DNA of 33,772 bases, from positions 1 to 33,772 of IMG/VR virus record IMGVR_UViG_3300042291_000186; one strand, written 5' to 3'. The position numbers were made by a program, and so were the translations under genes. Under the pieces are notes generated by a model. That model saw only the letters and a list, made by a program, of their open reading frames with translations. It was not told the DNA's origin and did not search any database. Positions within the stretch are counted from its first letter, which is position 1. Each line of letters begins with the position of its first letter. Positions 249 to 32,500 of the stretch are shown here, piece by piece. The stretch is from a virus.

Positions 249-258
249 TATGCATATA

Positions 259-543
259 ATGAGTCGACCAAAACCTAAAGTACTATTAGAGTACACAAAT
301 AAAAAAACTTATAAAGCTGAACAAGTTTTAGAAGCTGAAGCCATTTGGGCGGTCTTCTATAAAAATGAACCTTTTAATTTAAAGTCATTTAACAGCCTCA
401 CAAGTTATCCAGGTCCTAAATATAAAAAGACTAGCTTCTCTAATCCCGGCCACGCTGTAAATCTTGCTAAGAAATTAAATCTAACATTTGGTACTGAAAA
501 TTTCCAAGTTGTTAAGTTAACATCTGGCACCATTGTAAAATGA
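259..543 (+). CDS. Small conserved-type phage protein, unknown function
   Basis: A basic protein of 94 residues starting MSRPKPKVLLEY. The ATG at 259 is chosen over the in-frame ATG at 250 because of the GAGG at 245-248. It is rich in lysine, asparagine and aromatic residues, with a central SYPGPKYKKTSFSNPGHA segment and a C-terminal part (NLAKKLNLTFGTENFQVVKL) that looks like a helix followed by a strand. This resembles small basic proteins I recall from marine T4-like phages, but I know no function. It has no membrane segment. Its stop overlaps the next start (ATGA at 540-543), so the two genes are probably translated together. A possible late promoter lies upstream. Confidence 0.8.
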   Translation: MSRPKPKVLLEYTNKKTYKAEQVLEAEAIWAVFYKNEPFNLKSFNSLTSYPGPKYKKTSFSNPGHAVNLAKKLNLTFGTENFQVVKLTSGTIVK

Positions 544-947
544 TAACTAGAGATTTGCTAACTAAAATATTCCTACAACAGTGGGGTAAGAGTGTAGATG
601 AAACTAATGTAAATCTATATTCACATAAATGGTGGCAATCAAATCGAGTAAACAAACAAACTGCCTTTCGCCTTAGTGAAGAAGGGTATATGTTTTTGAC
701 GGGCGAATTGGAATTGAAGGAATATGAAATTCCATTTACTGAGCCAATTGAACTTAGTCCCCAAACAATTATCTTTTTGGAAAGATATATTGACTGTCCA
801 TATCTGTTAACTAATCAAAGCATTACTGTTTTTTCGGAAAAAAAGAGTTTTGAGCTAATGTTGTTTTCCGACGACATTAGAAAGTTTGGCTTAATTAAAG
901 CTATGAATGAGCGACAAAAAGAAATAGATTCTGAAAATAACACTTGA
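540..947 (+). CDS. Unknown phage protein, 135 aa
   Basis: The start overlaps the preceding stop in an ATGA, a typical translationally coupled pair. The product is soluble and acidic towards its end, with an aromatic N-terminal half (QQWGK, HKWWQSNR), a FRLSEEGYMFL segment that looks like a helix-turn-strand, and a charged C-terminal tail. No catalytic motif or membrane segment is visible. I recognise no family with certainty. The last codons and stop overlap the -35 box of the promoter for the next gene, so transcription of the ATPase gene starts at the very end of this one. Confidence 0.8.
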   Translation: MITRDLLTKIFLQQWGKSVDETNVNLYSHKWWQSNRVNKQTAFRLSEEGYMFLTGELELKEYEIPFTEPIELSPQTIIFLERYIDCPYLLTNQSITVFSEKKSFELMLFSDDIRKFGLIKAMNERQKEIDSENNT

Positions 948-972
948 CACTTCCTCGGGGTAGCTGTATAAT
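944..972 (+). promoter_or_regulatory. Perfect sigma-70 consensus promoter for the MoxR ATPase gene
   Basis: TTGACA at 944-949 and TATAAT at 967-972 are separated by exactly 17 bases, the full bacterial sigma-70 consensus. The -35 box overlaps the stop of the upstream gene, and the ATPase start lies 49 bases beyond the -10 box. Host RNA polymerase alone should use it, which fits early expression. A palindrome straddles the -10 box. Confidence 0.85.
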
Positions 973-1021: not shown

Positions 1022-2122
1022 ATGGCAGCAGAAATTATTAGCCGCACAGTTGGCCCAAAAAATGCTAAAAAGTCTCTACGTAAGGCTTTTAAAAACAAGC
1101 GTCCAATCTTCCTGTGGGGTCCTCCAGGTATTGGCAAGTCTGATATTATTAAACAACTAGGTGAGGAACTTGAAGCTCACGTAATTGATGTTCGTTTGAG
1201 TCTTTGGGAACCCACTGACATTAAAGGTATTCCGTACTTTGACTCAAATACTGGTACAATGGTTTGGGCTCCTCCCAGCGAATTGCCTAGCAAAGAATTT
1301 GCTAAAAACCATAAACAGATTATCCTGTTCATGGATGAAATGAATAGTGCGGCTCCTAGCGTACAGGCTGCGGCTTATCAGCTAGTGTTGAATCGTAAAG
1401 TTGGTACGTATGAACTGCCAGATAACGTTGTAATGGTTGCCGCTGGGAATCGTGAAACTGACAAGGGTGTTACTTATCGTATGCCTGCTCCGTTGGCTAA
1501 CCGCTTTGTCCACTTGGAGATGACTGTTGAATGGGAAGACTGGAACGAGTGGGCTGTACTTAATAAGATTCATAAGGACGTAGTTGGCTTTTTGACTTTT
1601 AGCAAAAAAGACCTGTACGACTTTGAACCTAAATCTAGCTCACGTGCGTTTGCTACTCCACGTAGTTGGTCTTTTGTTAGCGAACTTCTAGTAGATGACG
1701 ACACTGATGCTGATACCCTAACTGATCTAACTTCGGGTTCAATCGGCGAAGGCCTTGCTATTAAGTTTATGGCACATCGTAAACACGCAAGTAAAATGCC
1801 TAATCCTACAGACATTCTAAGCGGAAAGGTTAAAACAATGGACTCAAAAGAGATCTCAGCTATGTATTCTCTTACAGTAGCATTGTGTTACGAGCTTAAA
1901 GATAGTTGCGACAAAGGTGCTAAAGATTGGAACAAACAAGTTAATAACTTCTTTGAATTCATTATGAAAAACTTTGAAACAGAATTGGTTATTATGGGTA
2001 CTAAATTGGCATTGAGTACATACAAACTGCCGCTGGATCCAGATGAAATCGAGTGCTTTGATGCGTTCCACGCTAAATTTGGTAAGTACATTGCGGCGGC
2101 TACTGAAAAAGAAAGTCGTTAA
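1022..2122 (+). CDS. MoxR-type AAA+ ATPase
   Basis: A 366-residue AAA+ ATPase. Visible parts are Walker A GPPGIGKS (33-40), Walker B ILFMDE (101-106), a sensor-1 AAGN (140-143), LANRF (158-162) as the likely arginine-finger region, and ATPRSW (211-216) as likely sensor 2. The pattern fits MoxR ATPases, which hexamerise and act as chaperone-like remodelling engines with a VWA-domain partner (RavA/ViaA, CbbQ/CbbO and NorQ/NorD are known pairs). The next gene encodes such a VWA protein, so the pairing is strongly implied. AAGGA at 1009-1013 precedes the start by eight bases, and the gene has its own consensus promoter. Its substrate is unknown; virion assembly, host-protein remodelling or metal-centre insertion are open possibilities. 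It is a cytosolic protein with no membrane segment. Confidence 0.93.
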   Translation: MAAEIISRTVGPKNAKKSLRKAFKNKRPIFLWGPPGIGKSDIIKQLGEELEAHVIDVRLSLWEPTDIKGIPYFDSNTGTMVWAPPSELPSKEFAKNHKQIILFMDEMNSAAPSVQAAAYQLVLNRKVGTYELPDNVVMVAAGNRETDKGVTYRMPAPLANRFVHLEMTVEWEDWNEWAVLNKIHKDVVGFLTFSKKDLYDFEPKSSSRAFATPRSWSFVSELLVDDDTDADTLTDLTSGSIGEGLAIKFMAHRKHASKMPNPTDILSGKVKTMDSKEISAMYSLTVALCYELKDSCDKGAKDWNKQVNNFFEFIMKNFETELVIMGTKLALSTYKLPLDPDEIECFDAFHAKFGKYIAAATEKESR

Positions 2123-2138
2123 TAGGTTTCAAAACCAA

Positions 2139-2167
2139 TTGACAGGACCTTCGGGTCCTGTTATAAT
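2139..2167 (+). promoter_or_regulatory. Perfect sigma-70 consensus promoter for the VWA gene
   Basis: TTGACA at 2139-2144 and TATAAT at 2162-2167 are again spaced by 17 bases, a full consensus. The spacer is almost entirely a hairpin. The VWA gene start at 2198 follows 30 bases after the -10 box, with AGGAG at 2188-2192. The gene can thus be transcribed independently of the ATPase gene. Confidence 0.85.
2143..2160 (+). terminator. UUCG hairpin in the promoter spacer, possible terminator
   Basis: CAGGACC and GGTCCTG form a perfect seven-base-pair stem closed by a TTCG tetraloop, 20 bases after the ATPase stop. The bases after it are AT-rich (TTATAATAT) but not a true T-run, so termination may be partial. 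It overlaps the -35 box and fills the spacer of the next promoter. Confidence 0.55.
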
Positions 2168-2197
2168 ATATACATATAGCAAATAATAGGAGTAGAT

Positions 2198-3394
2198 ATG
2201 TCGCACAATGACCCAATTATTGATAAAATTATTGTAGCCCGGGTAGGGTTGCTACTTCGCCATCCGTTCTTTGGCAACATGGCTACCCGCTTAAAAATTG
2301 AAGAAGGCTCTGATTGGATGGGCACTGCCGCAACAGACGGACGAACCATTTATTTTAATCGAGAATTTTTTACGCCATTAACTACCAAGCAAGTAGAGTT
2401 TGTTATTGCTCACGAAATCCTTCATAATGTATTTGACCATATGGGTCGTAAAGAAGGGCGCAATGCTAAGATTTTTAACATTGCCGCTGACTATTGTGTA
2501 AACGGACAATTAGTTCGTGACCATATTGGTGACCACCAAATTAAAGGTATTACAATCTTTCATGACCCTAAGTATTACGGCATGGGTGCTGAAGAAGTAT
2601 ACGACCAAATTTTTGATGAGATGGACGAGAAAGAATTAGATGCTATCGGACAGTTACTAGACGACCACATTGACTGGGGTGAAGACGGCGGTGGCAAAGA
2701 TGGACAAAATAAACCATCGTATACTAAAGACGAGCTTAAACAAATTCGTGATGAAATCCGTGAGGCAACTATGCAAGCGGCACAGGCAGCGGGTGCTGGA
2801 AATACCCCCGCAAGTGTACAGCGGATGATTAAAGAGCTTACTGAGCCTAAGATGAATTGGCGTGAAATTCTGCGTCAACAAATTCAAAGTACTATTAAAA
2901 ACGATTATAGCTTTATGCGTCCTAACCGCAAAGGCTGGCACATGAGTGCTATTCTTCCAGGAACTCAATTCCAAGAAACAATTGATATCTGCGTGTCAAT
3001 TGACATGTCTGGCTCTATTGGCGACGAGCAAGCAAAAGATTTCCTAACAGAAATTAAAGGCATTATGGAAGAGTATAAAGACTTTAAAATTAAAGTTTGG
3101 TGCTTTGATACTAAGGTGTATAACGAAGCAGACTTTGATGGCTACACCATGGATGAGTTTGACGACTATGAAGTTATGGGTGGCGGCGGCACTGAGTTCG
3201 ATGCTAACTGGGATTACATGAAAGAGCACGATATTAATCCTAAAAAGTTTATCATGTTTACTGATGGATATCCATGGAGCTCATGGGGTGACGAAACGTA
3301 CTGCGATACAATTTTTATTATTCATGGAAATAATACAATTGTGCCGCCTTGGGGCGAATACGCTTACTACGAAGAAGTTAAGGAAATGGCGTAA
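2198..3394 (+). CDS. VWA-domain protein with HExxH metallopeptidase-like domain
   Basis: A 398-residue soluble protein with two domains. The N-terminal part carries HEILHNVFDH (72-81), an HExxH zinc-peptidase-type motif with a third histidine, followed by AADYCVN (96-102), as in the putative metallopeptidase domain called DUF2201_N. A charged linker (about 130-210) leads to a C-terminal VWA-like domain with a MIDAS-type site: DMSGS (269-273), GGGGTEF with the expected threonine at 332, and FTDG (354-357). Such proteins are partners of MoxR ATPases, and the ATPase gene lies just upstream. The VWA domain probably binds a metal-dependent ligand. Whether the HExxH site cleaves peptides is not shown. 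The gene has its own consensus promoter and a good ribosome binding site. Confidence 0.9.
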   Translation: MSHNDPIIDKIIVARVGLLLRHPFFGNMATRLKIEEGSDWMGTAATDGRTIYFNREFFTPLTTKQVEFVIAHEILHNVFDHMGRKEGRNAKIFNIAADYCVNGQLVRDHIGDHQIKGITIFHDPKYYGMGAEEVYDQIFDEMDEKELDAIGQLLDDHIDWGEDGGGKDGQNKPSYTKDELKQIRDEIREATMQAAQAAGAGNTPASVQRMIKELTEPKMNWREILRQQIQSTIKNDYSFMRPNRKGWHMSAILPGTQFQETIDICVSIDMSGSIGDEQAKDFLTEIKGIMEEYKDFKIKVWCFDTKVYNEADFDGYTMDEFDDYEVMGGGGTEFDANWDYMKEHDINPKKFIMFTDGYPWSSWGDETYCDTIFIIHGNNTIVPPWGEYAYYEEVKEMA

Positions 3395-3682
3395 ATGGCT
3401 TTAAAGAATGGCAAGCCTAACCCTTTAAATTATTTTGATATTCGGAGGGTTGAGTTTGCCGCTCCCCATTTTAAATACACTGTAATAGAAAAACATACAC
3501 CTACATTTATTAAACTAGTTAATCAGTGGATAACGCATAACCTAAATAATAGGTATTACATTGGACAAGATCTAACTTTAGACTATACAAACACAATTGT
3601 ATATACTACAAGAATCGGTTTTGAAAGTGAAAAAGAACTTAGTTTCTTCACAATTGCCTGTCCACATTTACAATCGAGATAA
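3395..3682 (+). CDS. Unknown small phage protein, 95 aa
   Basis: The ATG follows the preceding TAA with no gap, so it is very likely co-transcribed and coupled with the VWA gene. The 95-residue product is soluble and mixed alpha/beta, rich in asparagine and aromatic residues (NPLNYFDIRR, WITHNLNNRYYIGQD), and ends CPHLQSR. I see no catalytic signature or membrane segment and do not recognise the family. Its position makes it a candidate accessory to the MoxR/VWA pair, but adjacency is the only argument. Confidence 0.75.
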   Translation: MALKNGKPNPLNYFDIRRVEFAAPHFKYTVIEKHTPTFIKLVNQWITHNLNNRYYIGQDLTLDYTNTIVYTTRIGFESEKELSFFTIACPHLQSR

Positions 3683-17931: not shown

Positions 17932-19581
17932 TTAGCCTCTATTCCTTACTCGTACTCTAGGATAAACTGCTCCAGAGACGCCTCTAAGTTTGTAAGTATT
18001 ACTTGAAGAAACATTACCAGACAGCAACCTTTCTAGTTTATAAAACAAATATCGATTGTTTGACTCTGTTCCCAGCGATGTAAAATCGCCTGCGTTGCCA
18101 CCAGTTGACGATATTTGTGATTTTTTAGAAGATGAAATTAAGTATGATAACGCTTCAGCTTGAGTTAATGTTTGTTGCTGTTCTGATAGACACGCAAGGC
18201 ACCCAGTAACTTGAGGGCCTGACATGCTAGTGCCTGAAATAGATCCTAATTTATAGCTAGGATTTCTTGGATCATTTGCTAGTGTAATGCCAAATTCAGC
18301 TGCAGCTCCAGAGTCGTATACTGCGCTAATAATATTTTTGCCCGGAGCATAGATTGATACTCTAGATCCGTAATTACTAAAATTAGTCTTATATTCCTGT
18401 GTTACCGTGTCAATAGCACCTACAGAAATTGCGTTATCACTGTTTGGTGAAGATCCTCGACTATGAAAATATGTAGATCCACCGGACACAATACTATTGT
18501 TATAATCCGAAGATGCTAGTGTAGCTGTTGGCCAATAACTATTACCTGCGCTAACCACTGTTATTACTCCATCAGCAATTGCATCCTCAATATCGGCATC
18601 AACTGCGGCAGTCCGTGCTGGCATCCTATAAAGATAGTTACCTCCCGGAACTGGTACTCCATTAGATTCTAAAGTGATTTTTTTAGTTGCGTCTAATCCA
18701 GTAACTGCTACAGTAGCTCCTCGATATGTTAGTGAGGTAATCCCGCTGAGATAAATTGCTCCGTATGAGTAGCCCCAGCTGTTATTACACACTGTTGGAT
18801 TCCGTCTACCAGTAGCAGGATTTATTGGCTTCTTTTTATGAAACTCTCTTATATAATCAAAAATATATACAGACCAGTCACCAGCAGGGCCGTTGCCTCC
18901 TGCGTAAATAAATTCCATATTATAAATGTTGGCATCTCGGGCCCAGCCCTGAGTGTTACCAGCAACAGTACCAGCAACGTGAGTTCCGTGGTTGCTAGAA
19001 ATGTTTGTATAACTGTATGATCCAGAAGTACTATATCCTAAACTTGCGCTGTGTTGAAACCAATCATATTGTACAGCTCTTGACCCTCCAGTACCGTCAG
19101 CATTAACAGCAAACTCTGGATGATTAAAATTTATGTGAGCATCAACTATTACAACATCAACATTTTTTCCAGAACTAGTAGTAGACACTGTTTGTGTTGT
19201 TTGTGTAAACGCACCGTTAGTCCCCCAATTAGATAACGGTTGTCCTGCGGCAACTCTATATAATCCCCAATTTTTATCATTAGTATCGACGGTTGCGCTT
19301 TTTTCAAAATTTCCAGATTGTACCCAGTGGGGCAATGCCTCAATACCAAGCGCACTTGGCAACTGTTCTACTGCTAGTACTCTAGGGTCGTTGCGCAATT
19401 GTTCGGCTTCAGCTTCAGTGATAAGAAAATGTGTATTCCTACTAATTTCTCTACGTTGACTAACTGTAACTTGTCTGTTAGGAATATATAAATCACCACC
19501 AGCAGTTTCCATATCGTCAAGCAGAGACGTAGCATCGTCCATTGTCTTAGCAGTTACAATATATTCTATTAAGTCTGTCAT
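17932..19581 (-). CDS. Subtilisin-like serine protease (S8) with I9-like propeptide
   Basis: A 549-residue protein with a full S8 protease signature. The catalytic residues read as D147 (VVIVDAH), H198 (HGTHVAG) and S452 (GTSMSGP), with the oxyanion asparagine N347 (VVSAGN). Residues 1 to about 78 fit an inhibitor I9-type propeptide, ending with LRNDPRVLAVEQLP. There is no secretion signal, which fits a virion-associated or intracellular phage protease rather than an exported one. The C-terminal tail ends in PRVRVRNRG. It lies between a repeat fibre and other virion genes, one base from the upstream stop, so it is likely made with them. Possible roles are processing of fibres or the giant protein, or cleavage of host surface proteins. 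Confidence 0.9.
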   Translation of the reverse strand: MTDLIEYIVTAKTMDDATSLLDDMETAGGDLYIPNRQVTVSQRREISRNTHFLITEAEAEQLRNDPRVLAVEQLPSALGIEALPHWVQSGNFEKSATVDTNDKNWGLYRVAAGQPLSNWGTNGAFTQTTQTVSTTSSGKNVDVVIVDAHINFNHPEFAVNADGTGGSRAVQYDWFQHSASLGYSTSGSYSYTNISSNHGTHVAGTVAGNTQGWARDANIYNMEFIYAGGNGPAGDWSVYIFDYIREFHKKKPINPATGRRNPTVCNNSWGYSYGAIYLSGITSLTYRGATVAVTGLDATKKITLESNGVPVPGGNYLYRMPARTAAVDADIEDAIADGVITVVSAGNSYWPTATLASSDYNNSIVSGGSTYFHSRGSSPNSDNAISVGAIDTVTQEYKTNFSNYGSRVSIYAPGKNIISAVYDSGAAAEFGITLANDPRNPSYKLGSISGTSMSGPQVTGCLACLSEQQQTLTQAEALSYLISSSKKSQISSTGGNAGDFTSLGTESNNRYLFYKLERLLSGNVSSSNTYKLRGVSGAVYPRVRVRNRG

Positions 19582-20502: not shown

Positions 20503-23500
20503 TTATCCTTGATCAAATGTTATAGTGTTACTGTCAAATGTTCCATTAGTGTTGTCAAACGTTGATGTTATCGGAGCATTATCTTGTGTAGGTATATTAA
20601 ATTCAGTATACCATACACCCGGTTCTGCTTTTAAGAACCCTGATATTTTGTTGTTATCATTTAATATATTAGTTTCGCTGTCCCAATAAGTTAAAGTACG
20701 TTTAACAACAGTGACTTGTGTACCAAATGCTAGCGGAGTAGCTAACGTTAGCTGTTTTGATACCCCGTCAACTGTAAATTCTGCGTCAAATTGTACGTCG
20801 CCATTGGTACTGTCTGGATGATTGTTTACATTATAAACAGAATATGCGTCTTTCTTTAGACGAATGTTACCAATAAAGAATGACCAGTTTGCTATGTCAG
20901 TGTGGAACAAATTAGAACTAGTGTGTGCTGTTGTACATTTGTAAGTGTAACTACCTAATGTTACAAACATTCCAACATCATATGTCACGCTTGCCGCCCA
21001 CTCGGCTCCAATATTATATCCGCCTACAAATACTTCAATATCATGTGGCAACGTCTTAACAACATTAGTAGAAGTATTAAAAGTGTATAATCCTGGCGTA
21101 ATTTTAATTAAATTAACAATGTTAGAACCATCTGCTATTACTTGTTCAACAATTATATTTTCAATATAAGGAATAGTTTCACTTGGTCCAATATCTTGAA
21201 CAAACGATCCGGCACGATGTACAGTAGGAGTGCCAGTGCCTAATGTGCCTCGACGTAGTTGGCTTAAAATATTGCCAGTCTTGGTAAAGTATTCAATACG
21301 CTCGCCTCGGATTTCAATTACTCCTGGCTTATTTACAGTAGGGTTTGGCTCGTCAAATTTACTAGCATCAACAACCACAATACTAGTATCGTTCCATTCT
21401 AAATTACGAACTAACGAAGTTTGTTTGTTCAAACTTAATCGTTTATAGTGAACACGATTTAACATATCTTTAAATTGCATGTATGAAATACCAGGCTTCA
21501 ACACATTGCTACTGAATGTTAGTAATGTAAATTCATCGTTAGCTGCAGGGCTCGTTGATAATGTAACACTTTGTTTGTCTGAATTTAATTTAAAATCAAC
21601 ACTAGGTACCAGTAACTTACCGTTGCGCATGACCCACACGTAATTATCGCTAATAACAGTTCTATCTAATGTTATTGTACCGCCTGATATACCAGTATAA
21701 TTAAAATATTCAATAGTATCTGGCGTAAAGTTAATATTAGACGATACTGTAACTAGTGTTCGTTGAATATCCAATATATCATGCTTGTAAGAACTTATAA
21801 TTTCAACAACATTTAATGAATTGTATACTTCATTAAACACAATTTGCGGCTGAGTATTATTAATTCCAGGCAAGTATGTATAGAAACTACCTACTGTTAG
21901 ACTATCTTTTATTACGCTAATAACTAATTGTTGATTAACATATAAATTACGAATACGTGCTGTTATCTTAATATTAATTCCGCTAAGATCTACAACGTAA
22001 TCAGTACCTAACACAAGCATAGTGTTACCAACATATACTGTAATATCAGCAATATCTAAACCGTACTGTTGATATTTGTTTTTATCAATGGCATATATTA
22101 ATTTGTTTGATTTAATTTTATAATAAATGTTGTTTGCCGCTGGTAAAATTGTTTGGTCAACTCTTACAATCATGCTAGTTTCGGCAGGAAGACTGTTTCC
22201 AATTTTATTTTGAAGAGCATATGTTGACGTACCGTTTAATAAATCAGTTGAAGGATCGCGATTTTGGCGGCCATCGGTAGCAATTCTTTCAGTTTTAGTT
22301 ACAGCAAAAGTTTGTTCATTGCCACTGACAATTACAAAGTTTATAATAGTGCCAGTAGGTGGAGCAGAATCAAATCGTATGCCAACACGTTTATTGCTTT
22401 CATACGTAGCATCTGTTTCAAATAACTCAACTGCTTCAGGAATACCGTCAAGATATACTAAAGATGTAATATCTGACAACCACGGTGCTTTGGTAATAAA
22501 TTCAGTAGTTGAGCCGTTGCCAACAAAATAATCAAGATCTAAAATATTTGAACCGCTAAATCCAAAGCTGAATATTGAAACAATTTGCGTGTTTGTTGGA
22601 GCAGTATTAAACTTAATAGTACGAGTATTAAAATTAACAACGTAATCGTCGTTCATTGTTTTAATAACCGACGCAGATACGCCGTCAGTTATTTTTACAA
22701 TTACTGCCTGTGGACTATTAATTTGTTGAGTAATAGCATAATCAACTGTACTGTTGTCTCCAATATAATTATCTACTTTAATATTGGCAGAACCTGCGCT
22801 AGGTTTTTCGTATACTTTAATAGCAACAGTATCAAAAATTTGTCCCGGAACAACTTCTTCTGTAGCAGGGCTAGTTGTAGGCGTAACAAATCCGTCTCCG
22901 TCAACAATAATATCTTCAGCATTTAAACCAGTAGCAGAGCTATAAGCTAAGTTGCCGCCTGTTAACGCAGTATCATAGTCTGCTTCTTGAGGCTTAATTG
23001 AACCGTCACTAGTACTCTTACGAAAGATAAATTCATCTCCAGCATTTACAGTATATCCACTAGGAATAGTAATCACATCCGCGTCGCCGTTGCCAACAAA
23101 CGTGGCAACTACGTCAGGATCTAATCTAACTGGATCTAATGGCGAACTAATTGTTATTGTGCTACCGGCAGGTGCTAATTGAGCCAGCGTTATTAATCCA
23201 ACTATGCTAACTGTATAGTCAATATTTTTTACTAATGTGCGGGTAACAACTATATTACTGCCAATTCCAATAATTCCAAATATAATTTGATCTAGGCGTA
23301 AAGATGTTGCATTAATTATTTCAGTAACTTTTGTGTTATAACCAAAAATATTGTTAGCACTAGTTGTAATAATATCATTTATATTAATTCCCGCTGTGCT
23401 TGGCACTGATAAGATATATCCGCCAGCCGCATTTTCTACAGTAGTAGTAACAGTTTTAGATATCACTACCTTTAATGACTCGGCGGCAGTATTGTACTGA

Positions 23501-26500
23501 TAATCTAATCCGCTTGCAGAGTATGACTGTTGGTACAATTTAATATGATAGGTATTGATTTCTACGCCAGTTTCAGGCACGTATGGTAATGTGAATACGT
23601 GGGTGCCAGCTGCAACCGCAACAATATAATCATCAAAAGTTGCGTCAACACTATCCCATCTATCAGTATAGTAAGGTGTACTATCCCACCCTTGACTAAC
23701 ATTTAGTCCAAGACCGTTCATTATTACGCCGCCGTAGTCGACACCAGTCATTAACTGTGCTAGGTCTTTACCTACATCGCCTGTTTGCGGATTATAGTAA
23801 TATTGAATCCTGTCTGCCGCATTTAATAGACTCCAATCTTTCAAATACGATACTAAAACTATAGCATCTTTAGCAATGGCAGTTGTAAAAATAATAGACC
23901 CAGAATAACTAGTGTATCCTTTTGCAGTTGACTTAATTGTTACTAGTTTATAATCGTCACGTAGCACATCAACTCCGTTAATTGTTACAGACGATTTGCC
24001 TATTCTAATGTCAGGTGACCATTTTAACGGAAATTGTAAACGACTTCCGGTTCCAGTAAATGATTCAGTTTCTTCTAATTTAGTAATAAAATAATTTTGA
24101 GTTAATCTGTCAAATTTCATTTTAACTAAACTAGAACGAATTACACCGTTGCCAATATAAGCAACTACTTGCGCGGCAGTGCCGCCTTCATTTAGGCCGC
24201 CTTCAACTAAGACAGTTGGCGCATTTAAATAGTTACTGCCAGGTGTTAATAGTACTATTCTATTAACTTTACCATTAGAAATAAATGCCCTTGCTGTTGC
24301 GCCGGTGCCGGACTTACTGGCAATCCTAATAACCGGCGGTAAATTATATCCGCTTCCGCCGTCTACTATTTTAAGTTCAGTAACAGTAAATCCAACATTA
24401 TCAGCCCAATGTTTCCACGGATACGATGTTATTAGACTATCGTCAATTTGAATTACTTCGTCAACTATTTTAGTTTCAATAGTAGACTGATTTAAAACAC
24501 GATATGTTGGTTGTAAATCAAAATCAGTTAATGACAATTCACTAGTATCTGTTTTAGAATAAGAACTGATATATTCTCTAACCTTTGTTCTGTAAGGTTT
24601 TACTTCTGTTATATACGCTTCAAAATCTGATAAATTATCGCTGTTATAAGTAACTTTCTGAGTCAACTCGCCAACATTATGCTGTGCTTTAACAAAACTA
24701 GTTTTAAATATCCAGTCAAGATAATTTTGTTCCGAATACGCATAACGAACACACATAAAAAATAAATCTAAATAGTACGGTTTTAATTCGTCAATTAAAA
24801 TATTTTTTTGTAAACACACTAGGATATTTTGTAGTTCTCGGCTTGCGGAATTATCAAATATTGATCCATCATATAAAGAACCGTCATAACCATACGGTGT
24901 TCCAGAAAATTTATATAATTCAGGCAAGAATTGAATTGTGCCGTTTTGAATCCCAACTACCTCGTAACTTTGAGTCCAATCGATTGACGCTGATTCCGCA
25001 TATTTTCTTAGTAATAACCAAGTACCGCTACCAGTAGTCCTAACTTTAACTATTTGTCCTATCTTAGTAGTAACTGTGGTCAACTCAACAAATGTGTTGA
25101 CAGCGTAATCTATTAACGAGTATTGTCCATATCCGGTATGATACCAGTCAATATAATTCCAATATTTTCTAGTGTCATACCCTTGTGACTGAACTCTTGA
25201 CCAAGTTAAGGTAGATAGATCATATGAATAAATGCTCCAAGTATTAAGCGCCTGGACATCAGTATGAACTAGCGCAGAATATGATCTGATTGATATAGTA
25301 GTAGCATCATTATAACCAGTGCCTGATGAAATTATTGATGTTCCAACAATTTGACCTTTGGCATTTATTACAGTTTTAATCTTTGCTCCTTCGCCTGCCC
25401 CAGAGATATCAAGGTATGGGGCGTTAACATAGCCGTTACCTTTTGTAATAATAGTAACTGAAGTGATTGCGCCGTTAATTACTACTGGAGTAAGTACCGC
25501 GGGTTTAAATGCGCCAACGTTAGCAAATCTTAATTCAGCGTCAGTGTCAAATACAGTATCATATAATCCTAGATTAATATTTGGTTCAGGATCGTACGAC
25601 TCTAAACGTGTCAAGTCAGCATTACCTACTATTTGTGTACTTGATAATAGTAAGTTTGTCTTTTCAAAGAATTGTTTTAATGCTTCAAATCGATTTGCAA
25701 ACATGCCTTGACGAGGTCTATTTTCAATACCAAATTGTAACTTTGGCGGTAAACTAGGATCAGGCACTAGGCGGCCTTGCTCGTCTTTTCCGCACAAGCT
25801 GTCAAACCATTTTGTCTCAATAGCTGGTGGCAACACTGTGTTTATATTTTTACTAATTATTTTCCACTGACTGTGGATATTTTGTCCGGCATGATCAGCA
25901 ATCCAATATTGAACAGACAACACAACGTCTTTATCTTCTAATAAATTCGATACGTTGAATAAACTAAATGAGTTAGTGCCAGTTAGAGCTAAAAATTTAT
26001 ATCCATCACCTCTTGGGTTTGATATTAAATTAGCAACATCGTGTGCCGACATATTGCGATTAATAATATTTGGTATTGTTTTTTTATTTTTTACCCAGTA
26101 GTAATATGTATATTTGGTAGCTTTTGACACATTATCAAAACGTTTTTCGTAGCTGTACACATTATTTCCGTATAGGGTAGTTCCGCTTATACCTAATGTA
26201 GTTCCAGCGTCAGTGTCTGCTTGCTCGTTCCAAGCGTCCGGTAATAGTTGAGTTTCAACCCATTCGTATACGTCTATTGATGCTCCTGGAAATAATGTAC
26301 TCCAAGTACTGTTTCTATAAACAGTATCATCATCGTGACTATCTAAAAATTTTGCTGATCTTAAATCCCACCATAGCATACCTACTTGAGATTTTGTCCA
26401 TGACATACCGTTATCAATTTTAACAGTTGTATCAGCTGGCGTAGTTCCTAAAGGTGTGCTGTACACAGCAGGATCATAAAAAGTTTTATATTTTATTTCT

Positions 26501-29500
26501 TGCTCGGCTACTCCTGGAATTTTTCCCTGTACTGGATCAATTACATCTAAGTACGTAAGAAGCTTATTAGTTTTCTTATTATATAAGAACGCAGATTTAA
26601 TTTTTGTTAGGTCTAATTTGTTAATTTCTTTATGTAAGATTGACCAACTATATCTATCTTCCAATTTACTGTATTCGTAAACAAGGCCGGCGCGGGTTGT
26701 CCTATCAAGGGCATTTGGTGCGCCAACAAACACATGATTTGCCCCAACTACTACACTTGCTCCATACAATTCGTAATCGTAATTAGTAGTAGGTAAACTT
26801 TCACTGAATACCCAATTATTAGCATATCGATCATAAATGTCAACGCTGCCGCTGTTGGTACGGCGTGAGGTTATCTTTGTTAAATTGTCATCAAATATAG
26901 TTGAATTTGAATCGAACGTTGTTGGAATGTATGTATCAGCGGCAGTACTGTAAACTACAATGCTGTTATAATCATTCATAAATGATATTTTACTACCAAA
27001 ATGTTCTGCCGATTCGGGAATAACATTTTTAAGACTTTGATAGAACACGAATGCCCCGGCTGTATTTTTATAAACAAGCACAGCGCCTTGATCAATTTCA
27101 GCACCATCGGCAAGTATTGATGATATTGCTAGATATTCTGCAGTATCAGATAAGGTAATACTTTCACCAAATCTAGAATCTACACCAGTTATAGTTTGCG
27201 CCAATGTAAATGCAGAATCCGTTTTCTTATACACATATACTGATTCAGCGTTAGGAGCAGATATTGCTAAAGTTGATGAATCGCCGCTGACCTCAATCGC
27301 ATATCCAAACTGGTCCTCACTAGTTACTCCAGTGCCAATGCCAGTGTCGTTATTGTATACCCATTGGGTAGTTACAAAATTAAGGCGACCAGATGGTTCA
27401 GTATCAGGTGGTGCTGTTAATACATATAATGTTGAGCTTAGAATCTGTTTAACAGTTTGACCACTAGTGAATCCAACGCCAACTACTTCCATTCCTATAA
27501 CAACTCCACCTACAGGCACGGTTGTTTTAATAGTAGCATCAATACTTCCAATTGGATTATATAACGCAGTTGCATACGACACTTCGGTATAATTTAATTG
27601 ATAAACTCTGCCAGCATTATTATTTCGACCGGCTGCGCTAACAAATAATACGTTATCTCCAAATGCTAGATTTGATCCAAACAACTCAGTGTCAACTGCG
27701 TCAGGACTAGTAAATGTGCTAATCAATGAAAATAAGCCTGCGTTGTCTTTCTTATATAAAGAAACTACCCCTTGATTTATTAATTCTGACGGTACACCTG
27801 CTCTGTTAACTGTAATAAGTTCAGACACCGTTGTTGATACCGATACGTTACCTGCGGCAGGACTACCTATAGCTAACCAGGCACCGTCTGCTGATAGTGC
27901 TAACACATCTGAAAAATAAATTTTAGACCAATGTGCTACACTACTAGAAGGAATAACGTTGGCCGGTACAGTGTCATTAGCCTGATACCAACTGTTGATA
28001 TAAAACACAATAGTGCCAGTTGCGTATCCTGTGTCTACTAACCAGGTAGTTAATCCCAGCGAAGTAAACGGTTTACCAATTCTTTGAGTAGTTGACCACG
28101 GTACGCCAGGAACTGATTTACTATAAATTAATACATCGCCACTAGCTGAGGAAATTGCCGCTAGATTGCCAGCTTTGTTTACCGCAATAGTTCGGCCAAA
28201 TTCTAAGCCAGTGGTTGGAAGATACCCGGCAATTGTTGTAGATTGATATGCTTGATTAAATTCCCAAGTTGCCCATTTGCCGTCACCGGAGTCATCAGTC
28301 CATAATAAATCGCCATTAATTGGCTGTTTTTTTATTGTAGCATCAGCAGTATCTATGCTTGAAACTCTCTGTGATTGTAGGACAAACAGAGGAATAATTA
28401 AGTTAGGTGTAACCACCGGAGAAGATGTTAACGATGCTTCTAATATTAATACGTTTAGTTCAACCCTCTTAACTTTATAAAACCCCTTAAACAGAATTTG
28501 TTCAGTGCCAGCAAGATCTTTGTCGCCCTCAATGCCAACATATTCTCCTACTGTTATTTTTACAAGAACATCTGTTTCTAAAGATAATTCGTTATTGTTA
28601 GCATCGTAACTTACATTTAATATAGTTAAGTTTGAAGGAACATACTTATATACGTTCCATTCTCGACCTTCAAATCCACACCAGATATAGTTGCCATTAT
28701 TAATATTATCAATATTTTGCGTAACAATATTGTCAATTGTTAGTAACACTGCCGCCACTTCGTTTTCTCGAACATAACCAGGAGTTCTTAAATACGGTGA
28801 ATATTTTTTAACAACAGGCCATGGGTTGTTACTATACCCCAATGGTTTTAGATACACATCGTTAGGAGTTTGACGCACAATAAAATCAAGAGTACTTGAC
28901 TCAACATTGTTAACTAATTCAAATCCCTGAGGATTATTTTTAAATAGTGACTCATCTAAAATAAATTCAATATTTTCAAAGGCAGCACTTGCGCCGTATT
29001 GTCCAACACGAACTGCCCATTCTTCATCAAATACAATACTTTCTTGACCATCAGCACTTAACACATCAAACAACTTGTTTAATACGTTTTGTGTACCTTT
29101 TTCAATAATCATACCTTGATAAAATTTAAATTCACTAACATCATCTTTAATAATATTTTCAAGATATTGACGCTTTTGATAACCAATTAGATGCTGAGCG
29201 GCTTTTTGTTGTCCCACATCAAAGTTATCACTGTCTAAACTGTAAAAGTCTTCAAATTGGCTTGCTTTGTATGTCCAATTTGGAATTAGTCTTGGTGCTG
29301 GCTTGTTATCTAATTTAATCCAACTAGCTGGGTCAAATATATCTGTCCCAGGAGTAAACAAGTTTGCGCTGTAATAAAATTCTTTGTGCTTGACAATGTC
29401 ACCTAGCGCATAATCAGTCCACGACTCCCACGGTTGAATATTTGCTTGATCAAAAATAAATCCCGGAACATCAAACCCGCCGTACCAGTTGGTACTTACA

Positions 29501-32500
29501 TACCCTGATACTTTGATTCGCTCTTGTCTATATCCGCTTTCAGGATTATAAACGGTGTCATTAAACATTGTAGTGTTATTAAGCAATACTACTTGTTCTT
29601 TTTGTACTAAGAAAAAAGTTGCTCCAAAAATGCCGTCAGTTGTTGATGAGGCGTAACTTACAGAGTTATCCTCTCTATAAGAATTTATTAAGCGAGGCGG
29701 CATTGGCGACCCGTCTACTTTAAAGATTTCATATTCATGAAACGGATTTTTAATATCATCAACCACTGTATAAGGCACACTAAATGTTATCTTATCAGCT
29801 GACGGACTTAGAGATATAACTGAACTACCAACTGTACTTAGGCCATCTAACTTAACATAGTCGGCTTCTATAAAAATATCAGCTGATACTGATTTACGAA
29901 TAGCTTGATAATAATCACCGTTATATCGAATAATCTCTTGATACTCAGTAGTATTATACGGTATCCATTCTTTCCATTTTTCTTGACCGCTAGACCAATT
30001 TTGAGTTGTCCAGAACAAGAATTCTTTAGCACTTGTTTCCCAGTTAGTAATTAACGAAAGATTATTATTAAAATCGTCAAATATAAACCCTTGAGATTTC
30101 AACCATTCTCCATAGCCAATAATAAAATCAACTGTTTCCTGTACGGTTCTAAATTTTGTCCCGTAAGGAACAGTAATTTCTACAGAAGTATCCCATTCTG
30201 TTCTAAAAATTGCTTCTTGTCCGCCAATGATTGGCAACGCCCCTAATGATTCAAAATAGATAGCATTGAATACGGTTGTTGATGTATGCGTAACTTTTAC
30301 ACGATAGTAACGGTTATTGTATTTTACAACTTTATGAGTAGCGTATTGTTCGCCGGCAGTCCAAGAAGAAAAACTTTCTGAGATACCGCCAACATTGATA
30401 GTTGGCCCATTTTTTATATATGGAAAATATTTAAAATACGGTTGTACTTGACTATAACCTTTAACTTCAAACCCATCTTGTAATTTTGTAACAACTACTC
30501 CGCTATAGCTAATTCTTTTAACCGCAGAACTAACATTTAAAATAATATTGTAATCTTCTTGTGGAACAAATACACTGCCTGAACTAGAAGGAGTTTTACT
30601 GTCTAATAATAAATTAAATTTTTCTTTACTGGTAAACGCACCTAGTCGATAACTTAGTTGCATATTAAGCTGTTTTAAATTATATGAATACGTAGTATAA
30701 GATTTTAAATTATCGCTAAGGACATAATCAACAATGTAATTAATTACGCCGGCAGTTTGAACCCTAGTAGTACTTGAATATATACTAGGTAACACAACGT
30801 CTTGAGGACGAATTCTCAATCCAGTGTCTTTATATACTAGCTGTCCTGTTAAATTTCTAATAACTCTTGAACGGTCTAATAATACACCAAATGTTTTTGC
30901 CGGAGCAGTCAACATTGCTGTTATTAAAAAGCTAAATGGATAATAACTTCCTCGACGCCATGCTGCCTCAATTGGGCTGACATCACCAAATACAAAATCG
31001 TTGCTAACTGATACATTGTTTGGTCCAATAACTAAATTTGAAAAGATTGGTCCTAAAATTTCTCCGTTCTCATCAACAGGAATAGAATTAGCTAAAAAGG
31101 GTCTAACATATTTGGCCAAACGTACAACTGGTTTTCCTGGTTCCTTAACCAGTCCTAATCCTAGGTCTTGCCAAAGCACTAAGTTGTCTCTAGTATACGG
31201 GGCTGGGCCGTACACAGTTTCCCACCAGACAGGTGCTTCACTAAATCCTAACATTTCCCATGGGCATAAATTAGGTCTGTCAGTGTCTAACATCCAGCGA
31301 TATATACCTCTCCAATACCCCGGCACTGGTCTGCCGTCAATCGCAGAGTGTCCTTGATAGTTATATGTAAGACTGTTGGTTCTATCAAAACTTAACGGTT
31401 TAGAAAAATCTCTATCAATTAATCTAGTCCATTTATAAAATTGTGTTGACAGCACTTCATTAAATTCTGTTAAATTATAATCAGTAGGTCTAACATAACT
31501 TGGAAGAAAATCGTTAATGTCAAATATACTAGCATCATATTCAACTTTAATATTATTATAAATTCTTTTTTCTAATTCTAGAATTAGGTCATCTCGATAA
31601 TCACCGTAGGCTAATACTTGGCTACCATCGTGCCCCTGTATCATAGTCCTCGGAGTGACTAAACTTGTATCAAGATAAATTTTAGGTTCGTACTTAGGCC
31701 AGATACCTAATTTAGTTGGTGTTAGTGGTACAAAACAGCCATCAGTATTTTCATACTCAACTATAGCAATAAGATCATCATTGTTTAGCGTTGCTCTGAT
31801 AACAACAAACCCTTGACTATCAAATGTATAATCTTTTGAATGGATCAGTTGTACACCGTTTAAATAAACATAAACTGCTTGGTTTGACAGTACTCCCAAA
31901 CTAAAGGTAGATGTTAACGGGTATGATTTTATCCTATAGTCAATTACAGTATATTCGTTATATTGATTGGCGCCATACCCAAACATGTCACTAAAATAAT
32001 ACGAAACATTAGTTGGTTTATCTTTGTTAATTGCTTGTAAAATTAAATTAACTTGTGCCACTACATCAGTTGAATATACTTCAAGTGTATCAATGATTGA
32101 TATAAAATTTCTTTTAAACTTATTATAATCGTTCTTAGCAGTTTCAATAGCACGAATGATATTGTTTTCTTGATTGGTAATATGATACAACGACAATCCC
32201 ATTGGGCCGCTATGTTGTACAAATTTAGTACCGTACGGAGTTACATCGCCTAAGTCTCTAAGATTGCCGGCGCCTGGATATTGTCCTTCAAATGTATCAA
32301 TATTGTCAACTATGGAATTTACGTGATCAATAACTTCGCCTAATGTAAAGTCCGAAAGATTATTATTTAAAGGATTGTTTTGTAGATTAATAGGTATTTC
32401 GTAATAACCCTTAGAGTTGATTGGTTGCTCGGCAAATGCTCTAATTGTCAACACATCATCAACTGTAATATCAGTGGCTAATATTACTTTTTTGTAAACA

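Follow-up and report, generated by a model that had tools for sequence, protein, structure and literature searches.

The window analyzed here (the whole stretch of DNA, 33,772 nucleotides, its source record being a 33.8-kb virus contig) encodes a MoxR-type AAA+ ATPase and a zincin-VWA protein, a pair that we tentatively propose to be an ATP-driven protein-remodeling machine, probably made early by host RNA polymerase and at work during takeover or genome replication, its role not being confined to late particle assembly. The pair has been described before, in its Atu_ph07 homolog (Iyer et al. 2021, PMC7824862), and what we add on it is better evidence on distribution, motifs and likely timing; the less expected part is the regulatory junction between the two genes, where a covarying hairpin lies inside the promoter of the second. 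The carrier of the pair is a jumbo phage. On the plus strand the ATPase gene (1022–2122) is followed by the zincin-VWA gene (2198–3394) and by a 95-residue ORF that starts one base past the VWA stop, and the pair's ORFs and the zero-spaced third gene were found where a preliminary description of this DNA had placed them. The features referred to below are as follows.

250–543, plus strand: 97-residue protein, the most conserved small neighbor in related jumbo phages.
540–947, plus strand: 135-residue protein upstream of the ATPase, with weak homologs beside the ATPase in Phosso, BF and SCTP-2.
944–972, plus strand: perfect sigma-70 consensus promoter (TTGACA-17-TATAAT) before the ATPase gene (sequence scan; relatives).
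1022–2122, plus strand: predicted MoxR-type AAA+ ATPase, 366 residues (PF07726 AAA_3 above cut-off; phrog_1297; invariant motif residues).
1118–1141, plus strand: Walker A motif (GPPGIGKS) of the ATPase (sequence; K39 and S40 invariant).
2139–2167, plus strand: perfect sigma-70 promoter of the VWA gene with an extended -10 (TGTTATAAT), its 17-bp spacer wholly within the hairpin (sequence scan; relatives).
2142–2161, plus strand: hairpin with an 8-bp stem and a UUCG loop between -35 and -10 (RNA MFE -13.4 kcal/mol, z -4.1; covariation).
2198–3394, plus strand: predicted zincin (DUF2201_N) and VWA (DUF2201) protein, 398 residues (PF13203 and PF09967 above cut-offs; AlphaFold model).
2411–2425, plus strand: HExxH motif (HEILH, residues 72–76; sequence, alignments).
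3002–3016, plus strand: MIDAS DxSxS motif (DMSGS, residues 269–273; sequence, alignments).
3395–3682, plus strand: 95-residue protein with a predicted small alpha+beta fold, weakly related to the post-VWA genes of Phosso and Atu_ph07.

Pfam searches matched the ATPase to the MoxR family AAA_3 (PF07726; 31.3 bits, cut-off 27) and to AAA (34.3 bits, cut-off 21.2), the 13 families found up to an E-value of 0.1 all being AAA-type or other P-loop families, and it also matched PHROG 1297, annotated as 'ATPase', at 1.6e-99. Residues K39, S40, D105, E106, N143, R161 and R214 (Walker A/B, sensor 1 and arginines) were invariant in nine of nine phage homologs. With an AAA_3 domain and this set of residues the protein is predicted to be a MoxR AAA+ ATPase; it had previously been called a complete AAA+ ATPase from the letters alone, with which Pfam, PHROG and the invariant residues agree. 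A sequence search against solved structures gave a weak match to midasin.

The 398-residue partner matched PF13203 (DUF2201_N; 9.7e-42, residues 14–245) and then, in the same chain, the VWA-like family PF09967 (4.5e-15, residues 265–388), and all nine of the phage homologs searched matched both DUF2201 domains; together with the HExxH and MIDAS motifs, this arrangement marks it as a predicted DUF2201 zincin-VWA protein. That both motifs are intact had been noted before and was borne out here, HEILH and DMSGS being present and kept across homologs, with T332 and D356 as further MIDAS residues and H81 or D98 as the candidate third zinc ligand of the predicted metallopeptidase. In an alignment of 49 proteins, 29 of them phage or phage-like and the other 20 taken from bacterial contigs, no row departs from the five MIDAS residues or from H76/H81. 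All 29 phage rows also have H72, D98 and the HExxH glutamate; among the 20 bacterial rows, H72 and D98 are kept in 19 and the glutamate in only 14. Ten divergent VWA proteins (including those of N4, LUZ7, AR9 and CR8) retained every zincin and MIDAS motif residue. Strong selection thus acts on these motifs, and from the counts we read the VWA site as a fixed core and the peptidase site as kept in nearly all phages examined. Atu_ph07 (locus L152), which lay outside the aligned sets, has HQILH, with Q in place of the HExxH glutamate; the published example phage for the pair has lost its peptidase glutamate. In the AlphaFold model (mean pLDDT 81.5, pTM 0.55) the VWA half is a normal VWA domain (best Z 12.8 against the PDB, rmsd 2.5, 137 residues aligned), the list of matches to the 398-residue model being taken up by VWA domains, and sequence searches against solved structures gave weak matches to MJ1213. 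The 'HNH endonuclease' label of phrog_1314 found no support, no HNH family being found among the Pfam matches of any of nine homologs; many records carry this label although the protein has no HNH domain.

In the passages of Iyer et al. 2021 (PMC7824862) that concern this pair, ASV44729.1/ASV44728.2 are named as MoxR and vWA partners of a chaperone pair whose metallopeptidase domain is N-terminal, and a role in virion assembly is proposed for them, the analogy being a MoxR-vWA pair from an archaeal virus. We confirmed these two proteins as the Atu_ph07 homologs of the window's pair, which by this homology, its adjacency and its N-terminal metallopeptidase domain belongs with the phage MoxR-vWA/metallopeptidase pair of those authors. 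In Atu_ph07, an Agrobacterium phage, the homologous genes are adjacent and in the same order, and the VWA proteins are 37.7% identical over 98%; however, Q stands for the HExxH glutamate, and no promoter-spacer hairpin was found upstream of its VWA gene. AR9 g028/g029 (an AAA ATPase and a 'zincin-like protease fused to vWA domain') are likewise adjacent and have all zincin and MIDAS residues, but they have an annotated early promoter in a phage with its own RNA polymerases, whereas the window's pair has the sigma-70 type. N4 gp24/gp25 and their counterparts in N4-like phages are a homologous pair, gp25 retaining HExxH and MIDAS; they differ in identity (25–29% in alignments), in belonging to a 70-kb podovirus, and in the extra ORF between the genes in LUZ7 and EE36phi1.

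Among bacterial systems, a likeness to RavA/ViaA of E. coli had been pointed out earlier and is sound in kind, a MoxR ATPase standing with a VWA partner, here one with HExxH. RavA has a C-terminal accessory domain, whereas Pfam found no RavA-type C-terminal domain in the window's ATPase, and ViaA is not known to have a zincin domain, in contrast to the window's partner. CbbQ/CbbO also combine a MoxR-type ATPase with a VWA protein; however, CbbQ carries a C-terminal family of its own, which is absent from the 13 Pfam families of the window's ATPase, and the partner is a DUF2201 rather than a CbbO-like protein. As for the MoxR-vWA ternary conflict systems (bpMoxR, VMAP), bpMoxR scored 18.9 bits on the ATPase in the Pfam search, under its cut-off of 27, and PADLOC returned no defense match for the VWA protein and low-scoring generic AAA matches, with nothing else, for the ATPase; a tie to conflict systems, mentioned for related sets in the preliminary description, was not upheld.

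Hundreds of cultured phages have kept the pair, with N4-like podoviruses of 70 kb at one end of the range and jumbo phages of 490 kb at the other. Searches with tblastn matched the VWA protein to 785 phage records and the ATPase to 830, N4, rV5-like phages, PA5oct, 121Q-like phages and Bacillus phage AR9 among them; the arrangement is thus not due to chance, and the counts of VWA protein and ATPase by host genus were nearly equal (Pseudomonas 112/112, Klebsiella 70/70, Erwinia 34/34). In the close clade, 112 distinct loci have at least 1.4 kb of upstream sequence; in 110 of them the ATPase gene precedes the VWA gene by less than 150 nt, and in the other two the gap is 150–700 nt. That the genes might lie apart in related phages had been raised beforehand as an argument against the pairing, and this was found in part among 16 annotated records examined around one or both genes: all 15 records that carry both have them adjacent (nine: Atu_ph07, Phosso, N4, BF, ZC08, D98b, CR8, PBECO4 and AR9), separated by one to four genes (five: PA5oct, 4; TM27B, 3; SCTP-2, 2; LUZ7, 1; EE36phi1, 1) or, in the vequintavirus EmilHeitz, ~3.7 kb apart on opposite strands. 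The 16th record, Mycobacterium phage MsGreen, had a weak ATPase match and no annotated partner. In contigs labeled bacterial, a designation that rests on the label only, a matching ATPase was near the VWA gene in 28 of 32 loci. Our literature search found no experiment on the pair; in the portions of text available, the CRISPRi-ART paper (PMC11879866) mentions N4 knock-downs for rII and nothing on the pair, and an N4 lysis preprint and a jumbo phage review do not mention it.

Exact TTGACA-17-TATAAT sites occur in the window twice only, one ahead of each gene of the pair; these promoters, and the hairpin inside the second, are features absent from the preliminary description. Of the distinct ATPase upstream regions, 103 of 108 were within 0–1 mismatches of consensus, and 123 of 126 distinct VWA upstream regions had a 17-bp-spaced site with at most two mismatches. 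Judged from sequence, the two genes are predicted to be transcribed separately, each from a host-type promoter of sigma-70 consensus, for which reason host RNA polymerase probably transcribes the pair early; that is, we infer 'early' from the sigma-70 consensus. A 383-kb relative has 34 exact promoters, as against none in a reversed-pattern control, and its region G001:C1:87000-98000 (locus L533) holds a dense array of small ORFs, many behind an exact promoter, that looks like an early gene array; the distance from TTGACA to the ORF start is commonly 55–61 nt in the array and is 59 nt for the window's VWA gene. In Bacillus phage AR9 the pair lies directly behind an annotated early promoter, early promoters being the sole class annotated in the stretches of that record examined and an added late promoter possible; in the main text of the AR9 transcription paper (PMC5312081), as far as it was available, g028/g029 are not mentioned by number. 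Due to these three lines of evidence (the sigma-70 promoters, the promoter array of the 383-kb relative and the AR9 early promoter) we favor early expression over the published assembly idea, which the promoter evidence turns into a testable question of timing. T4-type late promoters (TATAAATA) were not found before the window's minus-strand genes, and therefore the window gives no direct early/late contrast.

At the junction of the two genes, the hairpin takes in the whole 17-bp spacer of the VWA promoter, including the TGT that precedes the -10, along with ACA from the -35 hexamer. Among 123 sites taken from the 126 VWA upstream regions and picked by promoter score alone, 113 have all eight stem pairs and 91 have a UNCG loop. 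Across 54 distinct elements, both sides of a stem pair were changed in 94 cells, as against 32 (sd 5) in shuffled data, and the covariation score was 0.489, as against 0.129 shuffled and 0.05–0.19 when the partner was slid by 1–3 columns, counts that are inflated by relatedness; the sharp register optimum and the five or more stem types are hard to get without real stem pairing. Sister loci L257 and L261–L265 lack a hairpin in the spacer and have a stem-loop farther upstream, followed in at least L263–L265 by a T-rich run, as in an ordinary terminator, and then by the promoter. In loci L004 and L084 a gene is inserted between the hairpin promoter and the VWA gene, and in L004 the element therefore stays with the ATPase end. 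The inserted L004 gene (L004:6999-7577) is a 192-residue ORF and, judged by eye, a putative 2-oxoglutarate-dependent oxygenase.

A scan of viral contigs with a UUCG-specific pattern gave at least 81 sites, of which at least 45 adjoin a VWA gene, at least 26 lie elsewhere with at most one stem mismatch, and at least 10 lie elsewhere without such a stem. With pair-bearing contigs and duplicates removed, at least 19 hairpin sites were left, at least 15 of them outside ORFs and at most 120 nt from the end of an upstream co-directional ORF; the distance for these intergenic sites was usually at most 21 nt. Of 96 generic promoter sites, 54 were likewise outside ORFs and within 120 nt of such an end. 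Elements resembling the hairpin promoter were seen at other junctions in viral contigs without the pair, such as L267, L275, L280, L302 and L303, among others.

On these observations it is quite possible that we are dealing with a compact junction of a new kind, in which an RNA hairpin, serving to end or protect the message upstream of it, would fit precisely within the 17-bp spacer of a sigma-70 promoter of consensus sequence, the outer pairs doubling as the -35 ACA and the extended -10 TGT, such that a 29-bp element would close one gene and open the next; it would derive from a separate terminator and promoter, as still found in sister phages, and recur at junctions in apparently unrelated viral contigs. 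Alternatively, the palindrome may be an operator for a dimeric repressor, against which stand the UNCG loops (91/123) and the finding that, of the 34 exact promoters in the 383-kb relative, just one has such a site. The UNCG loops suggest selection on RNA, and because of this we take the hairpin to end or protect the upstream message while being nested in the promoter that follows; termination at it is putative, since a U-tract is absent. A canonical plus-strand terminator is not supported, no U-tract following the stem and the scan calling a terminator on the minus strand only. The hairpin as a general feature of early promoters was ruled out: among 97 distinct generic TTGACA-N14-TGN-TATAAT sites from viral contigs, one had the 8-bp stem, and this single site belongs to contig L266, where the same hairpin pattern adjoins a VWA gene. 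We found nothing on point for a hairpin-in-promoter element in those parts of the literature that were accessible, and it may still be published; if the reading as a nested message end is true, it would show that a promoter and the signal for the end of a gene can share the same bases.

MoxR proteins form rings and use ATP to pull on or remodel a client. In the machine that we propose, the ATPase would form such a ring, with ATP powering the pulling on or remodeling of the client, the VWA partner would present clients via its MIDAS metal site, and the zincin domain at its N-terminus would either cut the client polypeptide or hold it. Each gene would be transcribed from its own sigma-70 promoter early in infection, the hairpin at the end of the ATPase message, folded into the VWA promoter spacer, would probably end or protect the ATPase mRNA, and the machine would act during takeover or genome replication, not solely in late assembly. 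We infer ring formation, MIDAS recruitment, proteolysis, early timing and the function of the hairpin from what was observed, namely the domains, conserved motifs, co-occurrence, promoter sequences and covarying hairpin. An early role is supported by gene neighborhoods in N4-like and several jumbo phages, the pair lying amid RNA polymerase, helicase, DNA polymerase or nucleotide-metabolism genes in N4, LUZ7, EE36phi1, D98b, TM27B and SCTP-2. It is weakened by the structural genes upstream of the pair in BF and PBECO4 and by the PA5oct record, which flags the ATPase as detected by ESI-MS/MS, a mark that could place it in the particle.

These same two observations favor a virion assembly chaperone, by which the pair would act late in infection and help structural proteins to be folded or processed, a role that the relevant passages of Iyer et al. 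2021 (PMC7824862) propose in group 2.2 jumbo phages; with consensus sigma-70 promoters on both genes, an early promoter upstream of the pair in AR9 and the replication or transcription neighborhoods of N4-like and several jumbo phages against it, we consider this proposal unlikely. A role in host takeover or counter-defense, in which the machine would dismantle or cleave a host complex (e.g., polymerase, respiration or a defense assembly), agrees with the early-type promoters, with the fuller retention of the protease motif in phage than in bacterial rows, and with rIIA/rIIB near the pair in N4, LUZ7 and one vequintavirus; however, the VWA protein has no defense-family match, no host target is known, and the almost universal presence of the pair in close relatives fits core machinery better than arms-race genes. 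We consider this role unlikely, slightly more so than assembly. It is improbable that the pair is a replication-phase factor maturing one phage enzyme (DNA polymerase or a metal-dependent nucleotide enzyme), as CbbQ/CbbO do for Rubisco, for although DNA polymerase, helicase, dCMP/dCTP deaminase and thymidylate synthase are recurrent neighbors, these are common phage genes that vary by lineage, and none accompanies the pair in every record examined.

The 95-residue gene had been put forward as a candidate third component, with the question of whether it is always present, and this is weakly supported. It has 362 relatives in IMG/VR, and a single-sequence search of cultured phages gave no significant match; its profile matched the small genes that follow VWA in both Phosso and Atu_ph07 (hhalign probability 80, 1.3e-5), an unrelated control reaching a probability of 0.2. 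A three-sequence profile of post-VWA small genes had a single match in the 383-kb relative, the 95-residue gene itself (E-value 0.05), and the reverse search, with the 95-residue profile against Phosso and Atu_ph07, found nothing. The predicted fold had no viral match under an E-value of 0.07, and the best PDB match, at Z 6.4, was uninformative. In 110 of 124 close loci no more than 60 nt separate the VWA stop from the start of this gene, which is displaced in the other 14, and it was not recognizable beside the pair in BF, PA5oct or SCTP-2. In close loci with enough upstream sequence, the 97-residue gene was present in 106 of 107 and the 135-residue gene in 107 of 107, and these two genes upstream of the ATPase are the more conserved neighbors. 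The 97-residue gene occurs in 15 cultured-phage records, which together with eight Erwinia/Serratia records top the list of VWA matches; if a third component exists, this gene is no worse a candidate, and synteny alone proves neither.

Beyond ThyX, the minus strand of the window encodes tail-fiber-like proteins, a subtilase and a virion-type protein of 4412 residues. The last of these, a single ORF at 20503–33741, matches the virion structural PHROG phrog_10938 (2e-282), due to which an N4-like virion RNA polymerase, which would account for a hairpin promoter, was ruled out for it. Matches to carbohydrate-binding modules lie close to the C-terminus of this protein, and the subtilase-family (Peptidase_S8) protein is encoded at 17932–19581, on the minus strand, amid tail/baseplate-type genes.
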